64,000 bases of DNA from Serratia symbiotica. Lineage in GTDB: Bacteria; Pseudomonadota; Gammaproteobacteria; Enterobacterales; Enterobacteriaceae. The translations under genes were made by a program, and so were the position numbers. Shown here piece by piece: positions 26,285 to 63,297 of this stretch. The stretch is taken from positions 1,364,001 through 1,428,000 of the forward strand of contig NZ_CP050855.1 in NCBI RefSeq assembly GCF_000821185.2, in the 5' to 3' direction. The notes beneath the pieces were generated by a model. That model searched no databases. It saw only the letters and a program-made list of their open reading frames with translations, and was not told the DNA's origin. Position 1 is the stretch's first letter; each line of letters starts with the position of its first letter.

Positions 26285-27453
<1,169 letters not shown>

Positions 27454-46730: not shown

Positions 46731-47630
46731 CTAAGTTAACGTTATCCGCTGGCTCCGGTATTCCCTCGGCGAGAGGTATCCCAGGGCACTGTGTGAATGG
46801 TTTTCATTGTAATGCTCGAACGCTGCCGCCAGGTTTATCAACGCCGTTCTCACATCCGGTTTTGGCATGAAGGTGATATAGCCACTTTTCATCGTTTTTA
46901 CGAACCGTTCAGCCATACCGTTGCTCTGTGGACTGCTCACTGCTGTTGTGCACGGCTCCAGATTCAGTTCCCTCGCGAACCAGCGAGTTTCATGCGCTAC
47001 ATAAGCCGAACCGTTGTCCGTCAGCCACTGGATTGATTTTTCCGCTAACTGATTACCGAACCGCTTTTCCACTGCACCCAGCATCACATCCTGTACCGTG
47101 CGGCTGTCGTAACCCCCTGTGCTGGCAGCCCTGTCTATGGTTTCTCTGTCGCAGCAGTCCAGCGCGAACGTCACCCGCAGCTTTTTGCCATCATCACAGC
47201 CGAACTCGACGCCATCTGAACACCAGCGCAACTCGCTTTCTGCCACCGCGACTTTACCATTATGCTCCCGCTGCGGACATTGTGGTTTGTCGTGCAGCAG
47301 CAACAGGCGGTTCTCACTCATCACACGATAAACCCGTTTGGCATTCACGGGAGGAAGCCCTTCATTGCGCGACTGTTTCCGCAGTATCGCCCACCCCCGT
47401 CGATAGCCATAACCCGGCATATCGCTGATGATCGCGAGGATACGCGGCAGCAGTTGTGCATCTGCTTCCTCATTCCGTCTGTTACAGCGCCCGTCCTGCC
47501 AGCCGACGGGACGATCGACCCGAAGGGATAACTGCGCACGCGACACGCCTAAAGCCCGGCTAACCTGTGCTATTCCTTGTCCTTTGGTAACCAGGGCGCA
47601 TGCGCTATCCATTTTCGCGACTGACCGCAC
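46731..47630 (-). CDS. IS2-like transposase OrfB
   Basis: Catalytic half of an IS2-type (IS3 family) transposase, 299 residues, close to IS2 InsD along its length ([37 protein letters not shown]). DDE residues in [20 protein letters not shown] and [13 protein letters not shown]. The frame is open, but its normal fusion partner OrfA is truncated, so it is probably not active. Confidence 0.9.
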
Positions 47631-48756: not shown

Positions 48757-48894
48757 CTATGCGTCAATGGCGTATACCGTAAGCACATGTTAGCATCTAT
48801 CGGGTATCAGTCAATGACGCATGGACGATCATGAAAGGTCTTCGGGGTGAAAACCTTTGCTGCCGTCACGCTGCCATTTAGCGTTTTGCAGGCA

Positions 48895-48920
48895 CAAAAA
48901 AACCGCCTCTCGGCGGTTTA
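48895..48920 (-). terminator. Terminator downstream of the tRNA-Leu end
   Basis: AAACCGCC (48900-48907) pairs with GGCGGTTT (48912-48919). On the minus strand it is followed by a run of T. It is probably the original terminator of the tRNA-Leu gene, now separated from the gene by the prophage. Confidence 0.75.
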
Positions 48921-48941
48921 ATTTATCTTTATAAATCAATG

Positions 48942-48996
48942 TGGTACCCGGGGCGGGACTTGAACCCGCACAGCCATAAGCCGAGGGATTTTAAAA
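48942..48996 (-). tRNA. tRNA-Leu(UAA) 3' fragment = left attachment site of the prophage
   Basis: On the minus strand the sequence TTTAAAATCCCTCGGC, a variable arm, CTGTGCGGGTTCAAGTCCCG (T arm) and GGGTACCA are the 3' portion of tRNA-Leu(UAA), from the anticodon to CCA. The 5' half (acceptor and D arm) is absent upstream (to the right), where AT-rich phage sequence and int begin. This is what remains when a P2-like phage integrates in the tRNA gene and restores the complete tRNA at its other end. The complete gene should lie beyond the right edge of the window. Confidence 0.88.
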
Positions 48997-49111: not shown

Positions 49112-50116
49112 TTAATCAGAAACCTTATCAAATGGATTAAGCGATAATGCCGCCTCCAAATGGTCTGGGGCAAAGTGCGCGTAACGCATAGTCATCATGA
49201 TGGTGCTATGACCGAGGATCTGTTGCAGCACTAAAATATTGCCCCCCCCCATCATGAAATGTGACGCGAATGTATGCCGCAAAACGTGGGTGCGCTGACC
49301 TGTAGGCAGTTCGATCCCCGCCCTCTTCAGTGCATGCTTGAAAGCATCATATGCAGGCGAAAACAACTCACCACGCTTTTTAGGCAACATCTCTTGTAAG
49401 CGCTTTGAGATCGGAACGGTACGATTTTTGTTGCTCTTGGTATTGATGAACGATATCCGTCCAGGCAATACCTGAGATTGCTTCATGCCTTCGGCTTCAC
49501 CCCAGCGCGAACCTGTAGCCAAGCAAACCCGCACAATCAGGCCAAGACTTTTGTTTTCCGACTCATCGCAAGCGGCCAGCAACCGCTTAATTTCATCCTC
49601 ATAGAGGAATGATAATTCCTGATCCCCTTCCTTGAATTGGCGTATTCCATCAAGCGGGTTGCCGCCTTCCCATTCACCCAGGCGCTTTAACTCAGAAAAC
49701 ACGGCGTGTAGGTATGACTGTTCACGGTTAACTGTGGCTTCTTTCACGGTCTTCCGTCCCTTTGCCATCCATTCGCCAGAAAGACGGTGCTCACGATAGA
49801 CAGCAAACATATTTTTATCAACTTCGTGGGCCAGCGGATCACCTAAACGTTTACAAATTGCCTCCAGCTTTGCTAAGCGAGATTCGCCGGATTCAAGCGT
49901 CTTGCCGTGCAGGTCATACCAGCGCTGTACCAACTCTGCTAATGTTACCGCGCCGATCTCTACCTCAGTTTTATTCCTTTGGGCCAAAAGTTTCCGCTCA
50001 TGCGAAAGCGCCTCGCCTTTTGTTGCAAATTGCTTCCGCACCCGCTTTCCTGCGGCTTTTCCATAGGGATAGCATTCGCAGAGCCACTTTCCTGATGGCA
50101 GTTTAGTTACTGTCAT
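49112..50116 (-). CDS. int: P2-type tyrosine recombinase (integrase)
   Basis: Site-specific recombinase acting on the tRNA-Leu att site. 334 residues. N-terminal arm/core-binding domain (residues 1-160), catalytic domain with Arg204 (ATGSRWGE), Lys227, His277-x-x-Arg280 (HVLRHTFASHF), His303 (LGHS) and nucleophile Tyr312 (MRYAHF). All catalytic residues are present. Its stop lies 115 bases from the tRNA fragment, the usual spacing to attP. Transcribed away from the repressor gene in the same direction. Confidence 0.95.
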   Translation of the reverse strand: MTVTKLPSGKWLCECYPYGKAAGKRVRKQFATKGEALSHERKLLAQRNKTEVEIGAVTLAELVQRWYDLHGKTLESGESRLAKLEAICKRLGDPLAHEVDKNMFAVYREHRLSGEWMAKGRKTVKEATVNREQSYLHAVFSELKRLGEWEGGNPLDGIRQFKEGDQELSFLYEDEIKRLLAACDESENKSLGLIVRVCLATGSRWGEAEGMKQSQVLPGRISFINTKSNKNRTVPISKRLQEMLPKKRGELFSPAYDAFKHALKRAGIELPTGQRTHVLRHTFASHFMMGGGNILVLQQILGHSTIMMTMRYAHFAPDHLEAALSLNPFDKVSD

Positions 50117-53717: not shown

Positions 53718-54296
53718 ATGAATCACTTAATGATCGATCTCGAAACGCTCGGAACGGATTCAACCGCGCCAATAGCTTCTATAGGTGCTGTTTTTTTTGA
53801 GCCTTCAACGGGCTGCACCGGGGGCCGTTTTTATGTTCGCGTGGATTTTGCCAGCGATATGGCGTTAGGGGCTAAACCTGACGGGTACGCCATGAAATGG
53901 TGGCTGAAGCAAAGCAGTGAAGCGCGTGCAGAACTGGTTAACGATGAAGCGTTGCCTGTTGGCCGGGCGCTATCGCAGTTATGCCAGTTTATCAAGGATA
54001 ATCAGCAGCCTGCTGGGAAGAAGCATTTACGTGTTTGGGGTAATGGTGCGTCATTCGATTGCGTGATTTTACGCGCCGCCTATGCGCGCGTCGGCATTAC
54101 GCCACCGTGGGATTGGTGGAGGGATCTTGATGTTCGTACCGTAGTAGAAATGGGGCGCGGGTTGGGTTATGACCAAAAGTATAATCTTATTTTCAAAGGC
54201 GTTCAGCATACTGCGCTTGATGATGCGTTACACCAAGTGGCTTACGTTTCGGAGATTTGGCAACGCCTGACAGCCGATAAGGAGCCAATATTATGA
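53718..54296 (+). CDS. 3'-5' exonuclease, DEDD superfamily (exodeoxyribonuclease VIII-like)
   Basis: 192 residues of the RNase T/DnaQ-like fold. Catalytic acids: MIDLETLGTD (DxE), GNGASFDCVILRAAYARV (second Asp), and QHTALDDALHQVAY (Exo III-type HxxxxD). Similar small exonucleases are frequent next to phage methylase genes. Stop overlaps the start of the adenine methyltransferase gene by four bases (ATGA), so both are translated together. Substrate (ssDNA or RNA) unknown. Confidence 0.85.
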   Translation: MNHLMIDLETLGTDSTAPIASIGAVFFEPSTGCTGGRFYVRVDFASDMALGAKPDGYAMKWWLKQSSEARAELVNDEALPVGRALSQLCQFIKDNQQPAGKKHLRVWGNGASFDCVILRAAYARVGITPPWDWWRDLDVRTVVEMGRGLGYDQKYNLIFKGVQHTALDDALHQVAYVSEIWQRLTADKEPIL

Positions 54297-55207
54297 TCCG
54301 CCCGTTCATCAAATGGGCGGGTGGTAAATCACGCGTCCTTCCTGATCTGCTGCCACACCTTCCTAAAGCTGACTGCCTGATCGAACCGTTCGTAGGCGGC
54401 GCTTCGGTATTTCTTGCGACTGAATACCGCCGCTATGTGCTGGCCGATATCAACCCGGATCTGATTAACCTGTATCGCTGCGTAACAAGTTACATGGATT
54501 TGGTTATCGAAACCGCGCAGGAAATATTTGAAAAGTTCAACGATGCCGAGGGCTACGGCAAAATTCGCACTGCTTTCAACACTCAAAGGCGATCCACACG
54601 TAAGTGTGCGCACACGCTGGAGAATATTGGACGCGCTGCGCAATTCCTCTATCTGAACCGCCATTGTTATAACGGCGTTTGCCGTTACAGCAAGAAGACC
54701 GGATTTAACGTGCCGTTTGGCAAGTATAAAAGCGTCTACTTTCCTGATAATGAAATCCGCCTGTTTGCCGAAAAGGCCAATGACACTAAGGCAATATTTC
54801 TTTGCGTACCGTTTGAACGTTCCCTACAGGTCGTCACTGGTGGCGACGTTCTCGTTTACTGTGATCCGCCGTACCTGCCTGCCAGCGATACCGCCAATTT
54901 TACCCAATACCACACCGAGCCATTCACAGAGAGCCATCACCGCCAGTTAGCGGCGGATCTGCTGGAAGTGAATCGCAAATATGGCGTGCCGGTTGTCATT
55001 TCCAACAGCGACACCGAAACCACCCGCGAGATTTACCACCGCTTCCGCCTGCATGAAATTAACGTGCAGCGCTCTGTAAGCACTGACACCAGCAACCGCC
55101 AGAGGGCCAAAGAAGTGATCGGCACTTTGGGACTCAGCATTCTTGACGAGTATCAGGCCGATTGCGGGATCTGTGAAAGCTGCGGGCAGTGTGCAGAGGG
55201 GGCATGA
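54293..55207 (+). CDS. Dam-like adenine-N6 DNA methyltransferase
   Basis: 304 residues, D12 class. Motif I-like FIKWAGGKSRVLPDLLPHLP and the SAM-binding FVGGASVF; catalytic DPPY in VLVYCDPPYLPASDTANFTQ; VISNSDTETTREIYHRFRL near the C-terminus. An odd Cys-rich tail ([14 protein letters not shown]) follows and could bind zinc. Probably methylates GATC, protecting phage DNA. Coupled by 4-base overlaps to the exonuclease and the cytosine methyltransferase. Confidence 0.9.
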   Translation: MIRPFIKWAGGKSRVLPDLLPHLPKADCLIEPFVGGASVFLATEYRRYVLADINPDLINLYRCVTSYMDLVIETAQEIFEKFNDAEGYGKIRTAFNTQRRSTRKCAHTLENIGRAAQFLYLNRHCYNGVCRYSKKTGFNVPFGKYKSVYFPDNEIRLFAEKANDTKAIFLCVPFERSLQVVTGGDVLVYCDPPYLPASDTANFTQYHTEPFTESHHRQLAADLLEVNRKYGVPVVISNSDTETTREIYHRFRLHEINVQRSVSTDTSNRQRAKEVIGTLGLSILDEYQADCGICESCGQCAEGA

Positions 55208-56202
55208 CTGTGACGGCCTATTACAACGAGATCGATCCCTTTGCGGCCCAATGGCTGCGCAATCTGATTGACGCCAAGCATATTGCCCCCGGTGTCGTTG
55301 ACACTCGCTCAATTGAGGACGTTACTGCAAATGACCTTAAAGGATTCACGCAATGCCATTTTTTTGCCGGGATCGGCGTCTGGTCATATGCCCTGCGCAA
55401 CGCCGGATGGCCAGATGAAAAGCCGGTCTGGACAGGCTCTTGTCCGTGCCAGCCTTTCAGCGCGGCAGGCAAAGGCCATGGGTTTGATGACGAGCGGCAC
55501 CTCTGGCCTGCGTTTCACTGGCTCATCAGCGAGTGCCGCCCTCAGTGCATCTTTGGCGAGCAGGTTGCAAGCGGTAACGCGAACGCTTGGTTCGACCTTG
55601 TACAAGCTGACCTGGAAGCCATGGACTACGCCTTCGGGCTTGTCCCGTTCCCGGCTGCGGGCGTCGGTGCGCCGCATATCCGAGACCGTGCCTACTGGGT
55701 GGCCCACACCCACAACACGGGAAGATGGGAAGGAATGCCAAAATGTGCCGCTGAACGCGTTGCTGGGGCGAGTGGTGTGGCTGACCGGCTGGCCAACACC
55801 GACATGCAATACGAATCCACAACCGGAGACGCCAAGGGGGCTTCAAAATCTGGCGGGCGCGGCAAGGTTAGCGGGCTGGGCAACACCCAACACAATGGAT
55901 ATCTTACCGATGAGATGTCGGAAAGCATTAGCGAAAGCGAGGAAGAAAGGCGGTTGCTCGAATCTCAAAGACCAGATACACGAGATAGTGTACTGCAAAC
56001 ATCCCTGCCGACTAACAGCTTCTGGCGAAATGCTGACTGGCTCTTCTGCCGGGATGAAAAGTGGCGGCCAGTTGAACCCGGCACATTCCCGCTGGCTGAT
56101 GGGGCTTCCGCAAGAGTGGGACGACTACGCGCCTACGGTAATGCCATCGTTGCGCCGGTCGCCGAAGCGTTCATAGCCTCATATCTGGACAGTGTGCAAT
56201 GA
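55204..56202 (+). CDS. Cytosine-C5 DNA methyltransferase
   Basis: 332 residues from ATG 55204 ([20 protein letters not shown]). Motif [18 protein letters not shown], motif IV with the catalytic Cys82 in [14 protein letters not shown], motif VI-like [14 protein letters not shown], motif VIII-like RDRAYWVAH, a divergent target-recognition stretch with repeated LANT/GLGNT, and a C-terminal motif X ([20 protein letters not shown]) after [18 protein letters not shown]. It overlaps the previous and following genes by four bases each. Its +1 frame is open over almost the whole length (see next entry). Confidence 0.9.
55268..56176 (+). CDS. Second long open frame inside the cytosine methyltransferase gene (possible overprinted gene)
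   Basis: 302 codons without a stop in the +1 frame. The product contains [40 protein letters not shown], three GW(P/A)TP repeats ([29 protein letters not shown]), and a C-terminal [20 protein letters not shown] leading into [14 protein letters not shown]. Repeated WPTPT and an ending of the type GGQLNPxxxxWLMGxPxxW are features that I know from phage DNA-modification proteins. So both frames look conserved. It could also be a shadow of the methyltransferase frame, since LANT in one frame becomes WPTPT in the other. A start for translation is not obvious. Confidence 0.4.
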
Positions 56203-58658
56203 CCACGGTAACCCGTGGCCGTTGCGCTCCTTCTTCGCCCCCACCTTTTCCGGGTAGCCCTGTTGATACTACCCGGTATGCTTACGCATGGAATAAGCCA
56301 GGCCAGGCAATTGGCCATGATCTGTCTCCTTCTTGCCGTGGTTTCGATTACCTGACGCCGGACGGCACCCGCAAGCATATTGATATCGCCAATCTGTACG
56401 AAGAGAACGAAAAGCCGGAGCGAAGCAAGCTGTTGCGCCGCCGCCTCGCTTCTCTTCCGCAGTATATCCGCCGCCACTTTGCCGCGAAGCTGGACGCGCT
56501 GGACGCGAAAGACCGCAAAGCGGCAGATCACTGGCTGATTAACACCTTTGAGCGCCATGTATTAACGCGTATTGATAGCGTGAATAGCGTTTACCAGCCT
56601 GATAGCGTGATGCCTGGCATCCTTCTGACAATCCGCGATCAGCTTTTCCGTATGCTCTGGGCAGGGAAGAAAGAGTTAAAAAGACTGGCTTATACGCTTT
56701 CCGATATCTTTACGAGCGAGTTTATACGCGAGTCCGATCACCAGCTTGCGCGCACTGGCGATCCTGAGTTCGCGGCGCTTTCTGGCTATGGCCGTATTGC
56801 GTCGCTGGCGGTGCATTTGAAAACGCCGATCCCCAGTTGGACAGCGTATTGCAATGAAGAACTGGAAGCGGAGGACGCGTTACGCGCGGTTCTTCGTCTT
56901 GAGTCACCACAGTGGTGGTTAAACCGCCTGCGCCGTATCCATGCCCGTTGGCGTGAGCATTTGATGATTGCAGCGGGATACGTCCAGAAAAAATCCTCCC
57001 CATACAGTAGCACCCCGTGCCTTACGGAATGGTTGGCCCAGAAAAAGGCTAACCGTGAATACCTTAAGGCTATGGAGCTGGAAGACCAGGACACGGGCGA
57101 GCGCATTTCACTTATCGATAAAGTCGCCGGTAGTGTCGCCAATCCGGCCAACCGTCGCCGCGAACTCATGACGAGAATGCGCGGATTTGAGGATCTGGCG
57201 AAGTTGGAAGGGCTGGCCGGTGACTTTTACACACTGACAGCGCCTTCCCATTACCACTCCATGCAGCATAACGGGTGCCGCAATAATAAATACTGTGGCG
57301 CGTCGCCGCGCGAAACGCAGCAATATCTTTGCAAGGTCTGGGCGAGAACCCGTGCAGCGTGGAAGAGAAAAGGGATCCGCGTCTTTGGTTTCCGCGTGGT
57401 CGAACCGCACCACGATGCAACGCCACACTGGCATTTACTTCTTTTTATGCGCCCGGAATGCGTCGAGCAGGCGCGCGAAATCTTCCGTACCTATGCCCTG
57501 AAAGAAGACGGCCACGAACCGGGAGCGCAGGAAAATCGCTTTCAGGTTGTGCCAATCGATGAAGCCCACGGCAGCGCTACCGGATATATAGCGAAATACA
57601 TTTCCAAGAATATCGACGGCTTCGCGCTGGATGGCGAGAAGGACGACGAAACCGGGGAAGACCTGAAAGAAATGTCACTCCGTGTTAGCGCGTGGGCGTC
57701 GCGCTGGTCTATTCGTCAGTTTCAGCAGATCGGCGGTGCGCCGGTCACGGTATACCGCGAACTTCGCCGCCTGGGCGATCGTGAACTGGTGTTACACCCT
57801 GAACTGGAAACCGCACGGCAGGCTGCTGATGCAGGAGAATGGGATAACTACGTGTTAGCCCAGGGAGGCCCGTTGGTTGAGCGCGATAATGTGCGTATCC
57901 GTCTGAACTATGAAACCACCGAAAACGGCAATGCCTACGGCGATGACGTCCAGAGAATTACCGGTATTTACTGCCCGATGACGGGCAGCGAATCGTTGAT
58001 ATTCACCCGCACCACTCAATACATAATTGTGCCAAAGCACCAGAGCGTTGACGGCGTGGTCGTTGACGTTGGTTTTTCAGGCGGCAGCGCCGCCCCTTGG
58101 AGTTCTGTCAATAACTGTACTGAGCACGAAAAACATACAGATCCGGGTGGTGAGCATCCGCCAGATAATCAGCCCGAACAGTTGGCCTTTGGTCAATTGA
58201 CCAGGGCGCAGCGAAAACAGCTACAAGCCAGCTTGCACAGTGACCAGCCTCGGCGACAAAAATCTTCTGCTGATGAGTTTGAAGCATTGGCGCGAGCCAT
58301 TGTTAGTGGTGAGTGTTCAGATTATGACCGCAGCAGGGCTGACAGCTATCTACGTGCGGCGCACACAATCCGGCAGGCAGAACAACCGGTTACAGCCGGG
58401 ATCGCCGTATTGGCTAAACAGGTGCAACGTTGGGCAGAGATCAAGCGGGTACCAGTGAGCAAGCCGCAGGCTGTGCAGCTTGCCCAAGGTAATGAAGTGA
58501 CCGTACTCGACAGTGTCTACCGCGCCAACCTCAACACCGGGGAGATCATCCGGTGCGGAACATTCGAACCATGGCGCAAGGCAATATCACGCAGGGAAAC
58601 CAGCAGCCTGATCGAAAGGTGGAAAGATGCAGCACAGCGGAAGGCTGATAGTCATTAA
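56199..58658 (+). CDS. A: Replication endonuclease A (P2 gpA, HUH)
   Basis: Rolling-circle initiator that nicks the phage origin and stays attached to the 5' end. 819 residues (P2 gpA 761). HUH motif at His410-x-His412 (TPHWHLLLFM), and the two active tyrosines at 463 and 467 (TGYIAKYISKN). ATG overlaps the methyltransferase stop by four bases. In P2 the origin lies inside gene A, so a nick site is likely here, but I cannot locate it. The C-terminal 200 residues are longer and less conserved. Confidence 0.93.
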   Translation: MTTVTRGRCAPSSPPPFPGSPVDTTRYAYAWNKPGQAIGHDLSPSCRGFDYLTPDGTRKHIDIANLYEENEKPERSKLLRRRLASLPQYIRRHFAAKLDALDAKDRKAADHWLINTFERHVLTRIDSVNSVYQPDSVMPGILLTIRDQLFRMLWAGKKELKRLAYTLSDIFTSEFIRESDHQLARTGDPEFAALSGYGRIASLAVHLKTPIPSWTAYCNEELEAEDALRAVLRLESPQWWLNRLRRIHARWREHLMIAAGYVQKKSSPYSSTPCLTEWLAQKKANREYLKAMELEDQDTGERISLIDKVAGSVANPANRRRELMTRMRGFEDLAKLEGLAGDFYTLTAPSHYHSMQHNGCRNNKYCGASPRETQQYLCKVWARTRAAWKRKGIRVFGFRVVEPHHDATPHWHLLLFMRPECVEQAREIFRTYALKEDGHEPGAQENRFQVVPIDEAHGSATGYIAKYISKNIDGFALDGEKDDETGEDLKEMSLRVSAWASRWSIRQFQQIGGAPVTVYRELRRLGDRELVLHPELETARQAADAGEWDNYVLAQGGPLVERDNVRIRLNYETTENGNAYGDDVQRITGIYCPMTGSESLIFTRTTQYIIVPKHQSVDGVVVDVGFSGGSAAPWSSVNNCTEHEKHTDPGGEHPPDNQPEQLAFGQLTRAQRKQLQASLHSDQPRRQKSSADEFEALARAIVSGECSDYDRSRADSYLRAAHTIRQAEQPVTAGIAVLAKQVQRWAEIKRVPVSKPQAVQLAQGNEVTVLDSVYRANLNTGEIIRCGTFEPWRKAISRRETSSLIERWKDAAQRKADSH

Positions 58659-58842: not shown

Positions 58843-59541
58843 ATGGGGTATTTAGGAAGTAAAGCCGCAAGTGGTGCATATCAAGCGATCATCAGCCAAA
58901 TGCCACCGCATGACACCTACATTGAAACGCACCTAGGTAGCGGCGCGGTGATGTTTCACAAGCCGCCAGCAGCATGCAATATAGGTATTGATCTTGATGA
59001 TCACGCCTTTGGGCTAACTCGCGCACGCTGGCTTGATAAGGGGTTAACTCCACCAAAATTGAACTTATACCACGGTGATGCAGTTGGATTTTTGCAACGA
59101 GAAGATTTTAGCCATCATGGCAGAACACTGATTTATGCTGATCCGCCCTATCTACCAGAAACACGCACAAGCCGTGCTAGTTACCGCCATGAATACACCA
59201 AAGACGATCACCGGCAATTGATCGCCACGTTGCGACAAATACCAGCCAGCGTGATGATTTCAGGCTACCCATCGGCACTATATGACAATTTGCTTTGTGA
59301 TTGGCGATCTATTCAGTTCCAAGTAATGACACGCGGCGGCCCGCGCACGGAACAGTTGTGGATGAATTTTGCTGAAGGGGCCGCCTACAGTCACACCTTC
59401 GCGGGTACTGATTATATTGATCGCCAGCGTATCAAGAGAAAAGCGGAAAGGTGGGCCAATAATTATAGAGCCTTACCATCATCAGAACAGGTTACCATCC
59501 TGAGCGCCCTTCTATCTACCCATCAGCACGGAGACAAATAA
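58843..59541 (+). CDS. Second adenine-specific DNA methyltransferase (D12 class)
   Basis: 232 residues. SAM site MGYLGSKAASGAYQAIISQM and THLGSGAVMF, catalytic DPPY in LIYADPPYLPETRTSRASYR, and a short C-terminal region. Shorter than the first Dam-like gene and not closely similar, so target specificity may differ. Starts 185 bases after A, with GGAG nearby; the gap holds only a small hairpin (GACGAAAACGTC, 58684-58695). Confidence 0.85.
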   Translation: MGYLGSKAASGAYQAIISQMPPHDTYIETHLGSGAVMFHKPPAACNIGIDLDDHAFGLTRARWLDKGLTPPKLNLYHGDAVGFLQREDFSHHGRTLIYADPPYLPETRTSRASYRHEYTKDDHRQLIATLRQIPASVMISGYPSALYDNLLCDWRSIQFQVMTRGGPRTEQLWMNFAEGAAYSHTFAGTDYIDRQRIKRKAERWANNYRALPSSEQVTILSALLSTHQHGDK

Positions 59542-59542
59542 C

Positions 59543-59887
59543 ATGATAAATGCCGCAGAACGTAAGCGCATGCAGCGACAACGGGATAAAGAGGCAGGTA
59601 TCACCACGATCACCTTGCGCTTAGATAGTCAGGAAATGGCGATGATTCTGGAAGGTTGCCAGCAGCGCCGGATCGCGAGGGAACCATATGATGTGACAGA
59701 ATACCTGATTGGCCTCATACGGCAAGACAACAAGCTGTTGCATAAACAGCTTGCCGAGCTGCGTAAAAGTAGCTGCGGGAAATGCGGCGACACGTTGCCA
59801 GGCGAGCCGGGCGGGTGTTGTATGCAGGGGGATGTGCAATGTTGGCAGACCACCGGCTACAAAAAGCTGATGCTGGCAACGCTGTAG
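59543..59887 (+). CDS. Small protein with helix-rich N-terminus and Cys cluster
   Basis: 114 residues. N-terminal MINAAERKRMQRQRDKEAGI and TTITLRLDSQEMAMILEGCQ resemble a ribbon-helix-helix DNA-binding start; a coiled segment (NKLLHKQLAEL) follows; then CGKCGDTLPGEPGGCC...C, which could bind zinc. It starts 1 base after the second adenine methyltransferase and is probably co-translated. Not recognised; a regulator of the following accessory gene is possible. Confidence 0.6.
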   Translation: MINAAERKRMQRQRDKEAGITTITLRLDSQEMAMILEGCQQRRIAREPYDVTEYLIGLIRQDNKLLHKQLAELRKSSCGKCGDTLPGEPGGCCMQGDVQCWQTTGYKKLMLATL

Positions 59888-60303
59888 AACCTTCACCAGT
59901 CGAGAATAGCAGCACCGAAGAAATGACATGTTTTAGCTTAGGTTCGAGTTAATGTTATTGCAACCTGGGCCAAAGTCAATCTGAATGATAGTTTTGCGCC
60001 AAAAGCTGACGTTTATCGAGTTGGTCCGTATAATAATGCGCGTTCAGCCCAATAATCATTGAGAAGAGTGATGTTCACTATCTTCGATTCAGTCGATGCT
60101 AGCTAGGATACCTAGGGTCATCCATCACTTGTGATTAATGATAAATAACATAAACAATGTACGCACTAGAATCATCTTGGGAAATGTGCCACGCACTTGT
60201 GAAAAAAAATATAAAAACGGCATTAATTTTTTAAAGTTGCAAACTAACTTTTCTACATCTAGAATATTAGATGTGCTGCTAGCTTTTTCTTATAAGGGAT
60301 AAA
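59888..60303. other. 415-bp AT-rich gap before the 388-residue gene
   Basis: No open frame of note. Base composition drops toward AT from about 60100. TAAGGG (60294-60299) is the ribosome site of the following gene. The A-rich stretch at 60200-60260 is suitable for a promoter. A boundary of the accessory insertion probably lies in this gap. Confidence 0.5.
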
Positions 60304-61470
60304 ATGAACATTTTCAATGTCATTGAAACAGAAGCACCTCTTTGCGAAGAATTTAAGTTAATTCTTGAAAACCCAAACTATAAACCTGTCCACAAAGTTC
60401 TCCAGTCGTGGGGAGAAGGCCTGCTGGAAAGATCTGGAGAGCAACGTAAATTTGTTGTCGAATTCCAGACAACGTTTAACTCTTCGTTTTGGGAATTATA
60501 TCTAAATAAATCATTCAAAGAGTTGGGATATTCAGTCGATTATACAAAGGATAGGCCTGATTTTTGCATAACTACACCTGAAGGTTATCAATTCAATGTC
60601 GAAGCCGTTATTTCTGATAAAAGCAAGGTTTTAACTAGACAAGAGGAGTATATGGATGAGGAAACCTACGCTCAGCACTCCACCACCAAACTGATAGGCA
60701 AACTGAAAGATAAGAAGGATCTCTTCATCGGCACTGAGAAAAAAAAGAACCCTTACTCGTCACTGGATCATGTGAAAGATAAGCCGTTCGTTATTGCCAT
60801 AGCCCCATTTGATAGCAAGATGTCTCTACTCCAAAATAACACAATGATTAACAGAGTGCTATTTGGAATCGAGCCACCTGACTCGAATGATTTGTCTTTT
60901 GGTAAGCAGAGATCTGTCAGTTCAACTTTCAAACCCAATGGTTCACCTATTGAAGTCGGGATTTTTACGAATGATTCCTATAAAGAAATAAGCGCAGTAA
61001 TATTCTCAACTACCGGTACACTTGATAAAGCCATCGTTGAAAGTGGCGCATCAAGGCTAGTGAGGGCCACCCGTTATAAAACCATGTGTGTGAACGAATT
61101 CGTATCTAAAGAAGGTAGGCAGGCTCATAGATTAAGCCGGTTCAATTATCTCATCACTCAACGTTTCTTCCATGATGAGCAATTTTTTGGTTCAGATGTA
61201 ATTATTTGCCATTCATCTGAATGGACAGAAACACATTTAGACGGTTTGCATATCTACTACAACCCGTTCGCCACAACACCTCTAGATTCCAAAATATTCC
61301 ACGCTAAAGAAATCACTCATAACTTTTATGATATCGATCGCCAAGAGCCAAACATGCAACATCCTGACGGAGCATTAGTATCCAGGCAGTTGTTTAGACC
61401 ATCAAAGCAATTCTTGAATTTATTAGTAACCTCTTACTGCCCTGAATTTATTGCTGATACCAAATGGTAA
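60304..61470 (+). CDS. Unrecognised nuclease-like protein in the P2 accessory slot (candidate antiviral gene)
   Basis: 388 residues, visibly more AT-rich than the genes around it. The N-terminal third has FVVEFQTTFNSSFWELYLNK (residues 50-69), FKELGYSVDY and then DRPDFCITTPEGYQFNVEAV (83-102). An acidic residue in a helix (Glu64), then PD (Asp86) and a strand with Glu100 about 14 residues later follow the layout of PD-(D/E)XK restriction-fold nucleases, with the usual Lys not obvious. The rest (SLDHVKDKPFVIAIAPFDSK, then AIVESGASRLVRATRYKTM) is unfamiliar. Own promoter region, own terminator, nothing else in the slot. In P2 phages the region between A and Q carries genes such as old and tin that exclude other phages, so a defence role is my inference. 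Confidence 0.6.
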   Translation: MNIFNVIETEAPLCEEFKLILENPNYKPVHKVLQSWGEGLLERSGEQRKFVVEFQTTFNSSFWELYLNKSFKELGYSVDYTKDRPDFCITTPEGYQFNVEAVISDKSKVLTRQEEYMDEETYAQHSTTKLIGKLKDKKDLFIGTEKKKNPYSSLDHVKDKPFVIAIAPFDSKMSLLQNNTMINRVLFGIEPPDSNDLSFGKQRSVSSTFKPNGSPIEVGIFTNDSYKEISAVIFSTTGTLDKAIVESGASRLVRATRYKTMCVNEFVSKEGRQAHRLSRFNYLITQRFFHDEQFFGSDVIICHSSEWTETHLDGLHIYYNPFATTPLDSKIFHAKEITHNFYDIDRQEPNMQHPDGALVSRQLFRPSKQFLNLLVTSYCPEFIADTKW

Positions 61471-61674
61471 TTGAATCACCATTGATAACCCAGATAATTT
61501 AGCGCCCTATTTTCAGACGTATTTCTTGCGGGCATAACGTCAAACTTCACCCATATCCGAGTGCCAGGCCGAGTATTCATCTATACAAATGACGCAATTA
61601 AAATGAATTAATATTCACAAAAATGATTGACACCAACTAAGCGGCATAGAAACCTGAACATTACCGCCCCAACC

Positions 61675-61711
61675 AAAGCGCCTATACGCCACACATCGAG
61701 GCGCTTTTTCT
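61675..61711 (+). terminator. Terminator of the 388-residue gene
   Basis: AAAGCGCCT (61675-61683) pairs with AGGCGCTTT (61699-61707), a 9-bp stem ending in T residues. Confidence 0.8.
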
Positions 61712-62191
61712 TTGCACCAACGATCGCACATCAAATCTGATCGCCTCGCAGCGATGCGCAGGTGAAAGCGGTGTGAGGTTTGCGGCGGATAGGCAGGGAA
61801 AACGATCCCCATCGATCCCCTATTCCGTGCCGTCCCCCCCGCCCCCACGCTGCATGCTTAACAATTCACTTTTTATGCAGTTGGAAAAAGTGTGTAAAGC
61901 CTTGTCTGGTGCGGTTTTGAGGGGTGATTAGGTATGCAATGAACTATGCGGATTGTTGCACTTAGGATATGCAGCGTTTTTTTGGCAAAGAATCACTTTC
62001 GATCTCTGCAAAAACTGCGATTGCGGGTTGAGTGCCGACATTGAGCATGCCGGGCGACTTTGCGTTAACCTGCCACGTCACACTTTAATTTTCAACAGCC
62101 GTGTGACGCGACATTTTAATGAAAAAAAACGCCTGTGACATGTCACAACAGCACACGGCTAATAGATGTGATATGAATAGCAGCGCATAAG

Positions 62192-62220
62192 AATGCAAAA
62201 ACTGCCTTTCGGCGGTTCAT
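62192..62220 (-). terminator. Terminator of the P-Q transcript
   Basis: AACTGCC (62200-62206) pairs with GGCGGTT (62211-62217) with one wobble; on the minus strand it is followed by a T run. It lies past the Q stop. Confidence 0.7.
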
Positions 62221-62259
62221 ATTGCACGCATCAAGCAACTTACTTAATAAGTTAACAAC

Positions 62260-63297
62260 TTACTGGTCATTTTTGAGCAGTTCATACAGATTGAAGCTGA
62301 TCACCTCTTCCCCGACCCAGTCGTTTAGCTCGCACAATCGTTCCTGTAATGGCGACATTTCATTAATCGCAAACACTCGCGCAGCCTTTTCCACATCCCC
62401 TAAACCGCCGCTGTTGTTCGGCACAATCCCCATCAATTGCGGTGGCGTGCGTTGAGACGCCAGCTGATCGTCGCGCGTCACTCCCTTGATGTTCAAAAAC
62501 TCATCTTTTGCCGCTACCTCGGCCAGCGGAATAAGCTGCAAGCCGTCCGGCTTACCGCCAGGCGCGTACATAAACAGATTGCGGAAATTACCCGGCCCTT
62601 TCGATTCCTTCAGCGCCTTTCGCAGGTTGTCGATATCCTCCTGTTTGTGCGCGGCATCGTTCATGTACAGAATAAAGCCGGCATGGCTGCCGTTGAGGTA
62701 GTATTTCCGGCGAAACAGCGTTGCGGCCTCGTTCAGCCAAATGGAGTTAAGTGCAGAAAGGTACTCGGGAACGCCGTAGATCTCCTGATTAATGTCCGGG
62801 TCAAGCAGGTGGAAAATGGTGCCATCTTCAAACTGATGCGGCTCCGCCCACGATTGAACAAACCAATATGAGTCCGGGTTGACGCCGCGACGGGTATATT
62901 TCGCCAGGCTGGGAACCAGCTTCATTATCCCGCCGAGGCGGTTGTAACGTGCCTCCATGAACGCATTGCCGAACACCATAAAATCCAGAGCGTAGCGGCT
63001 AAAATCCTGCTTTGACAGCAAGGGGTGAGGTTTAAACATGCTCACTAAAATGTTGCGTTTCATCATGATAGACGAAGTGTGATGCACAGCTGAACGGAAT
63101 GTCTTCGCCAGGCCGTTGAACGAGATTGGCGGCTCATACCAGCGATCGACGACGCAGCACTCCAGATAATCCAGTATTTCGCGCCGATCCAACATCGGGA
63201 TCGGGTCGCCGAAGGTGAACGCCTCAACGTGTTGCGCGCCAGTCTGTTTATGTGTCGTTGGCTGGGCATGCTTGCGGCCCCGGTTGCGCTTGCTCAT
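62260..63297 (-). CDS. Q: Portal protein (P2 gpQ)
   Basis: Forms the portal vertex through which DNA is packed. 345 residues (P2 Q 344). PBSX/P2 portal family features: EAFTFGDPIPMLDRREILDY near the N-terminus, NAFMEARYNRLGGIMKLVPS, GVPEYLSALNSIWLNEAATL, and PPQLMGIVPNNSGGLGDVEK. The start ATG follows the P stop immediately, so they form one unit P-Q on the minus strand. Intact. Confidence 0.93.
   Translation of the reverse strand: MSKRNRGRKHAQPTTHKQTGAQHVEAFTFGDPIPMLDRREILDYLECCVVDRWYEPPISFNGLAKTFRSAVHHTSSIMMKRNILVSMFKPHPLLSKQDFSRYALDFMVFGNAFMEARYNRLGGIMKLVPSLAKYTRRGVNPDSYWFVQSWAEPHQFEDGTIFHLLDPDINQEIYGVPEYLSALNSIWLNEAATLFRRKYYLNGSHAGFILYMNDAAHKQEDIDNLRKALKESKGPGNFRNLFMYAPGGKPDGLQLIPLAEVAAKDEFLNIKGVTRDDQLASQRTPPQLMGIVPNNSGGLGDVEKAARVFAINEMSPLQERLCELNDWVGEEVISFNLYELLKNDQ

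Follow-up and report, generated by a model that had tools for sequence, protein, structure and literature searches.

Phage defense in Escherichia coli has been published for the systems of the study that named PD-T7-5: 21 systems, five of them from a selection with phage T7, were cloned with their native promoters and lowered plaquing by the selecting phage (PMC9519451). A review table credits PD-T7-5 to this work (Vassallo et al., 2022) and gives PD-(D/E)XK as its prediction (PMC10952713), and subsequent work showed protection by PD-T7-1 against a T7-like phage (PMC12409345). The paper on Shield reports a low-probability RmuC-like prediction for both PD-T7-1 and PD-T7-5, and states that ShdA II shares neither sequence similarity nor a predicted fold with them (PMC10270631). 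PD-T7-5 is named in lists of predicted systems (PMC13268207, PMC12421847), and other PD-T7 systems appear in further lists (PMC11514479, PMC12629846); our literature search, which missed most subscription papers, found no mechanistic study of PD-T7-5. Here we describe a PD-T7-5 family gene of Serratia symbiotica, located in a 64,000-nucleotide stretch of contig NZ_CP050855.1 (positions 1,364,001 to 1,428,000; hereafter the window, with positions counted from its first letter). The gene lies between the replication gene gpA and the portal gene gpQ of a P2-like prophage, an interval reported as a defense hotspot that holds old and tin in P2 (PMC9122126, PMC9519451). We consider it very likely that the gene is a single-gene anti-phage defense carried as cargo in this slot, with a putative nuclease in its N-terminal part.

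The encoded protein matches the PADLOC model for PD-T7-5 at E = 1.1e-132, over residues 1-367 and profile positions 1-342 of 346. By this full-length match it belongs to the known PD-T7-5 single-gene defense family, and the view taken in an earlier sequence-only reading, that the gene was unrecognized, has to be abandoned. The PD-T7-1 model also matches the protein (E = 2.2e-40; profile positions 108-428 of 452), which lacks the ~107 additional N-terminal residues of that model. Both models match all 110 members of our alignment of homologs (A4), and a 449-residue homolog from Escherichia phage mEp460_ev081 (L002), 27% identical to the window protein, resembles PD-T7-1 by length only. In PHROGs the protein falls into a family of unknown function (4.1e-90), and no Pfam or NCBIfam family matched at E ≤ 1. 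Sequence searches of the Protein Data Bank (PDB) returned chance-level matches, the best being a galectin (E 0.26) for the single sequence and a designed protein (E 0.066) for a 110-row profile.

The open reading frame (ORF) is a real gene rather than a chance frame because 791 proteins match its product at E ≤ 0.001. Its limits and length had been read correctly from the letters. It starts with ATG, and AAGGG stands shortly 5' of the start codon. Among the best 120 of the 791 matches, the nearest relative is a Serratia marcescens protein (91% identity, full length), followed by proteins of Providencia (80%) and Rouxiella (78%). The gene is present once in its own genome, where the locus itself is the sole match. 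Family membership and location are thus both established at the level of sequence.

The surrounding element is a P2-like prophage of ~33.5 kb that extends past the window end. It is bounded by a 107-bp perfect direct repeat, the second copy lying 33.4 kb beyond the first, with an integrase-like ORF (49112-50116, named by eye) just inside the left copy; these features together identify the prophage. A 33.7-kb IMG/VR contig (L084) carrying the PD-T7-5 gene at 100% identity is probably the same prophage. Two IS3-type transposase-like ORFs were also recognized by eye in the window, at 26285-27124 and 46731-47630.

The position between the P2 genes A and Q, proposed from the sequence along with the view of this slot as an established site for phage-exclusion genes, is borne out by gpA on the left and the portal gene on the right, and by the published hotspot. 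Contrary to the earlier claim, the gene is not alone there: it shares the interval with genes for an adenine methylase of the D12 type and a small regulator. Its placement after these two genes distinguishes it from the old/tin cargo of P2, with which it otherwise shares its position. Three methyltransferase genes stand around gpA (54293-56202 and 58843-59541), two of the D12 adenine type and one of the C5 cytosine type. Both adenine methylases have homologs in two sister prophages of the same genome (L170 and L171), and a homolog of the C5 enzyme (57%) occurs in L170.

These sister prophages were located through three further portal matches in the genome (L170, L171 and L172). Their gpA proteins are 92% (L170, C1:2142547) and 89% (L171, C1:54134) identical to that of the window, whereas their portals show only 49% identity, a contrast that suggests module exchange. 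Both slots contain a homolog of the window's upstream methylase, 66-75% identical and, in L171, split into two pieces, and neither gpA-portal interval contains a PD-T7-5 gene. For L172, gpA was not found in the stretch taken. We also surveyed 20 stretches, chosen non-randomly: they adjoin the top-scoring portal matches found in genomes of the same family. Both slot borders could be located in 18 of them, with intervals of ~1.0-6.0 kb between BLAST ends and differing ORFs. Among the 74 slot ORFs (three of them the window's own), ten larger ones were scanned with defense models, and eight had a PADLOC hit at E ≤ 0.01, that of L159 being weak (E 5e-4). Pfam was run on 16 slot ORFs, including two of those ten. 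One slot ORF of genome G026 (L154:1872-2429) matched an ElaD/SseL-like C-terminal domain (9.4e-45). The PD-T7-5 gene therefore has the marks of gpA-gpQ slot cargo: it lies between the borders, is missing from the sister phages and occupies a slot of variable content.

Composition sets the gene apart as well. As noted from the sequence, it is AT-rich and unlike the adjacent phage genes, with a GC content of 0.391 (0.388 at third codon positions, GC3), against 0.486-0.584 for eight nearby phage genes (GC/GC3 of 0.551/0.584 for gpA and 0.534/0.665 for the portal gene). Because the gene adjoins replication and packaging genes, it might be asked whether it acts in phage replication, packaging or recombination and is not defense cargo. 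Such a role appears highly improbable: the two other gpA-portal intervals of the genome are without the gene, its composition is unlike that of phage genes, relatives are carried by plasmids, including conjugative ones, and by chromosome contigs whose fetched flanks showed no gpA or portal homolog, and defense has been published for the family (PMC9519451).

A genomic-neighborhood search for homologs, suggested in the sequence-only reading, found the family beside P2-type genes elsewhere. A P2-type gpA, portal or terminase gene stands near the family gene in 13 of 108 loci. Apart from the window's locus and its IMG/VR copy, these represent just five elements, spread over eleven loci. One, an Aeromonas prophage represented by four loci, has the full order of gpA, family gene and portal, and is the only one of the five with both borders. 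The gene lies 2.4 kb from the portal in a Halomonas prophage, on the strand opposite gpA in a Collimonas prophage, just 3' of gpA in a Thermodesulfobacteriota contig, and just after the portal, on its strand, in a metagenomic contig. Since the homologs of these five elements are only 27-32% identical to the window protein, separate entries of the family gene into the P2 slot are likely.

Outside P2-like elements, 93 of 72,556 plasmid records contain a match, 27 of them typed as conjugative. The family gene occurs on a conjugative plasmid of Vibrio, adjoins a Lit-family exclusion gene on an Agrobacterium plasmid, and is found on replicons of E. coli (111 kb) and Cronobacter (101 kb) that also carry tail-fibre genes and appear to resemble phage-plasmids. 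Two records of a phage collection match, both distantly. Matches were found in four of 246 same-family genomes: the window's own and three that are partial and distant (34-36%). In E. coli genomes, the gene of locus L088, the sole family branch used as query there, had no near DNA match; its product is 99.7% like a Proteus protein.

The nearest ORFs vary among the 32 loci inspected. Ten upstream neighbors comprised SIR2_2, DUF6680, Gamma_PGA_hydro, two AbiGi and five with no Pfam family. We scanned 115 of 123 neighbor ORFs; the eight ORFs of L084 and L110 were omitted because these loci duplicate the window or L085. AbiJ N-terminal domains were present in four ORFs, and AbiGi, reverse transcriptase and Peptidase_U49 each occurred twice. 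These counts are not independent, since some of the loci nearly duplicate others. AbiGi-family genes lie directly 5' of the homolog at L087:5249-5932 and L088:5184-5909, and a DUF2971-annotated gene does so in an E. coli replicon (L109:7176-7931); these genes are possibly loosely associated with the PD-T7-5 homologs. No constant partner gene was seen among the 32 loci and 115 neighbor ORFs, and because the neighbors of relatives vary in this way, the PD-T7-5 gene probably acts alone.

The methylases raise the prospect of a restriction-type nuclease whose own DNA is shielded by the prophage, either by the adenine methyltransferase just upstream or by the adenine and cytosine enzymes before gpA, all of which lie within ~6 kb upstream. 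We judge this arrangement improbable. Homologs of the upstream methylase occupy the slots of two sister prophages, yet the genome has a single copy of the defense gene; neighbors of the family are variable, with no methylase in the 25 most frequent of 73 Pfam families among the 115 neighbor ORFs; and clones resembling restriction-modification systems were set aside in the Vassallo et al. screen (PMC9519451).

Evidence for a nuclease comes from the N-terminal part. In a 205-row alignment that includes the window protein, 204 rows carry Glu64, Asp86, Glu100 and Lys137 together; the sole exception (L059) is gapped at three of these positions. Ten loci with truncated, broken or unreliable ORFs (L025, L026, L029, L030, L031, L036, L051, L054, L078 and L083), a partial protein (P0009) and exact duplicates were removed before alignment, and L002 and L003, which are not in A4, were kept. 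All four residues persist in the two most distant homologs, those of Escherichia phage mEp460_ev081 and Morganella phage IME1369_01.

AlphaFold2 produced two models, one from 36 sequences (mean predicted local distance difference test [pLDDT] 87.0) and one from 110 sequences (mean pLDDT 92.9, predicted template modeling score 0.93). The second contains a helix (58-73), a two-residue strand (77-78), strands 87-90 and 96-105, a helix (119-142) and a strand (162-169). Its alpha-beta-beta-beta-alpha-beta topology is that expected of a PD-(D/E)XK core, and the acidic residues are suitably placed, with Glu64 on the first helix, Asp86 just before strand 87-90 and Glu100 within strand 96-105. The lysine expected two residues past the third acidic position is missing: the sequence reads E100-A-V, and 81 of 88 loci rows have valine or threonine at position 102. 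All 88 have Lys137, which lies on the long helix that follows and likely takes the place of the missing lysine; migration of the catalytic lysine occurs within the PD-(D/E)XK superfamily.

The top fold match of the better model is not a nuclease, and although many restriction-endonuclease-like proteins are among the fold matches, all are weak. Foldseek returned nothing at E ≤ 0.001 for either model against the PDB, or for the first model against viral models. No RmuC family match was obtained (E ≤ 1; also E ≤ 0.1) and none was among the structure matches listed, which does not in itself show absence. The layout inferred in the sequence-only reading is supported: Glu64, Pro85-Asp86 and Glu100 were correctly placed and are conserved, and the core topology agrees, while Lys137 had been missed. 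Likewise, the reading as slot-borne defense cargo gains support from the PD-T7-5 match and the recurrence beside gpA or portal genes, but the fold matches are too weak to decide on the nuclease. On residue conservation and modeled topology, we regard a metal-dependent PD-(D/E)XK nuclease as the probable identity of the N-terminal half.

The C-terminal part is strand-rich and probably serves in recognition or control. Ser230, Lys242, Glu309 and Asn320 are invariant in the 110 aligned sequences, and the half of the protein that includes them may control or complete the nuclease activity. Our tentative proposal, which we hold with less than even confidence, is that PD-T7-1 and PD-T7-5 form one nuclease family with the Glu64/Asp86/Glu100/Lys137 site, in which the strand-rich C-terminal part, with its Ser230, Lys242, Glu309 and Asn320, detects a phage product or completes the active site, and which tells self from non-self with neither a partner nor a methylase. 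The Ser230/Lys242/Glu309/Asn320 set, which a simple nuclease core does not account for, could instead belong to an abortive infection protein that kills or arrests the cell by attacking host nucleic acid or by a non-nuclease activity, and does not cut phage DNA directly. Twelve of the 21 systems of Vassallo et al. probably act by abortive infection, yet direct immunity was seen for seven of the 11 that include a DNA-binding or DNA-cleaving component (PMC9519451). We view abortive infection as a real possibility, though not a probable one; its host-nucleic-acid form overlaps with the defense nuclease that we favor.

Expression signals attributed to the gene fared unevenly. Candidate promoters exist, the best scoring 10 of 12 matches, but the ten promoter-like sites in 59700-62300 compare with 5.6 ± 2.4 in shuffles, and promoter evidence is weak. 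A scan for short-loop terminators found one site, within the gene, and none past its stop; a longer-loop, terminator-like hairpin with a T-rich tail lies downstream (Table 1), in the one of three downstream pieces that folds better than shuffles (z for the other two, 1.58 and -0.72). We take a 54-residue ORF directly 5' of the gene (60138-60302) as a chance frame, no search for its homologs having been made.

Table 1. Features of the PD-T7-5 locus and its prophage (window positions)
Feature	Position	Strand	Basis or remark
Putative attL, 107-bp perfect direct repeat	48889..48995	.	second copy 82329-82435 (window-equivalent), outside the window
P2-type gpA replication endonuclease, left slot border	56199..58658	+	phrog_91 4.6e-261
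Adenine DNA methyltransferase of the D12 type, between gpA and PD-T7-5 gene	58843..59541	+	PF02086 4.7e-07; phrog_56
Small phage regulator, between gpA and PD-T7-5 gene	59543..59887	+	phrog_536
Promoter-like site CTGACG-17-TATAAT	60006..60034	+	best site, 10/12 matches; not clearly above chance
PD-T7-5 family anti-phage gene, 388 amino acids	60304..61470	+	PADLOC PDLC04110; PADLOC PD-T7-1; phrog_8571
N-terminal part, ~residues 1-250, PD-(D/E)XK-like core Glu64/Asp86/Glu100/Lys137	60304..61053	+	tetrad 204/205; AlphaFold2 model
C-terminal part, ~residues 250-388, predominantly beta strands, with conserved E309, D313, N320	61051..61470	+	AlphaFold2 secondary structure
Terminator-like longer-loop hairpin, T-rich tail	61675..61707	+	~205 nt past stop; z -2.31 for 61660-61730
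P2-type portal protein gpQ, right slot border	62260..63297	-	phrog_68 9.2e-162

We infer that this PD-T7-5 copy protects its lysogen, and its most likely role would be to make the lysogen resist superinfecting phages. During infection, the predicted Glu64/Asp86/Glu100/Lys137 site would cleave nucleic acid in a metal-dependent manner, with the strand-rich C-terminal part providing recognition or control of the predicted nuclease. The family and the kind of slot were already known; what this analysis usefully adds is the residue set and the overlap between PD-T7-1 and PD-T7-5. The locus contributes a well-supported PD-T7-5 copy; its prophage has sisters in this genome that lack the gene. The conserved tetrad, together with Ser230, Lys242, Glu309 and Asn320, offers a concrete set of residues for probing the mechanism of the family. 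Moreover, since the PD-T7-5 and PD-T7-1 models match the same 110 proteins, tools that count the two as separate systems may be splitting branches of one family.
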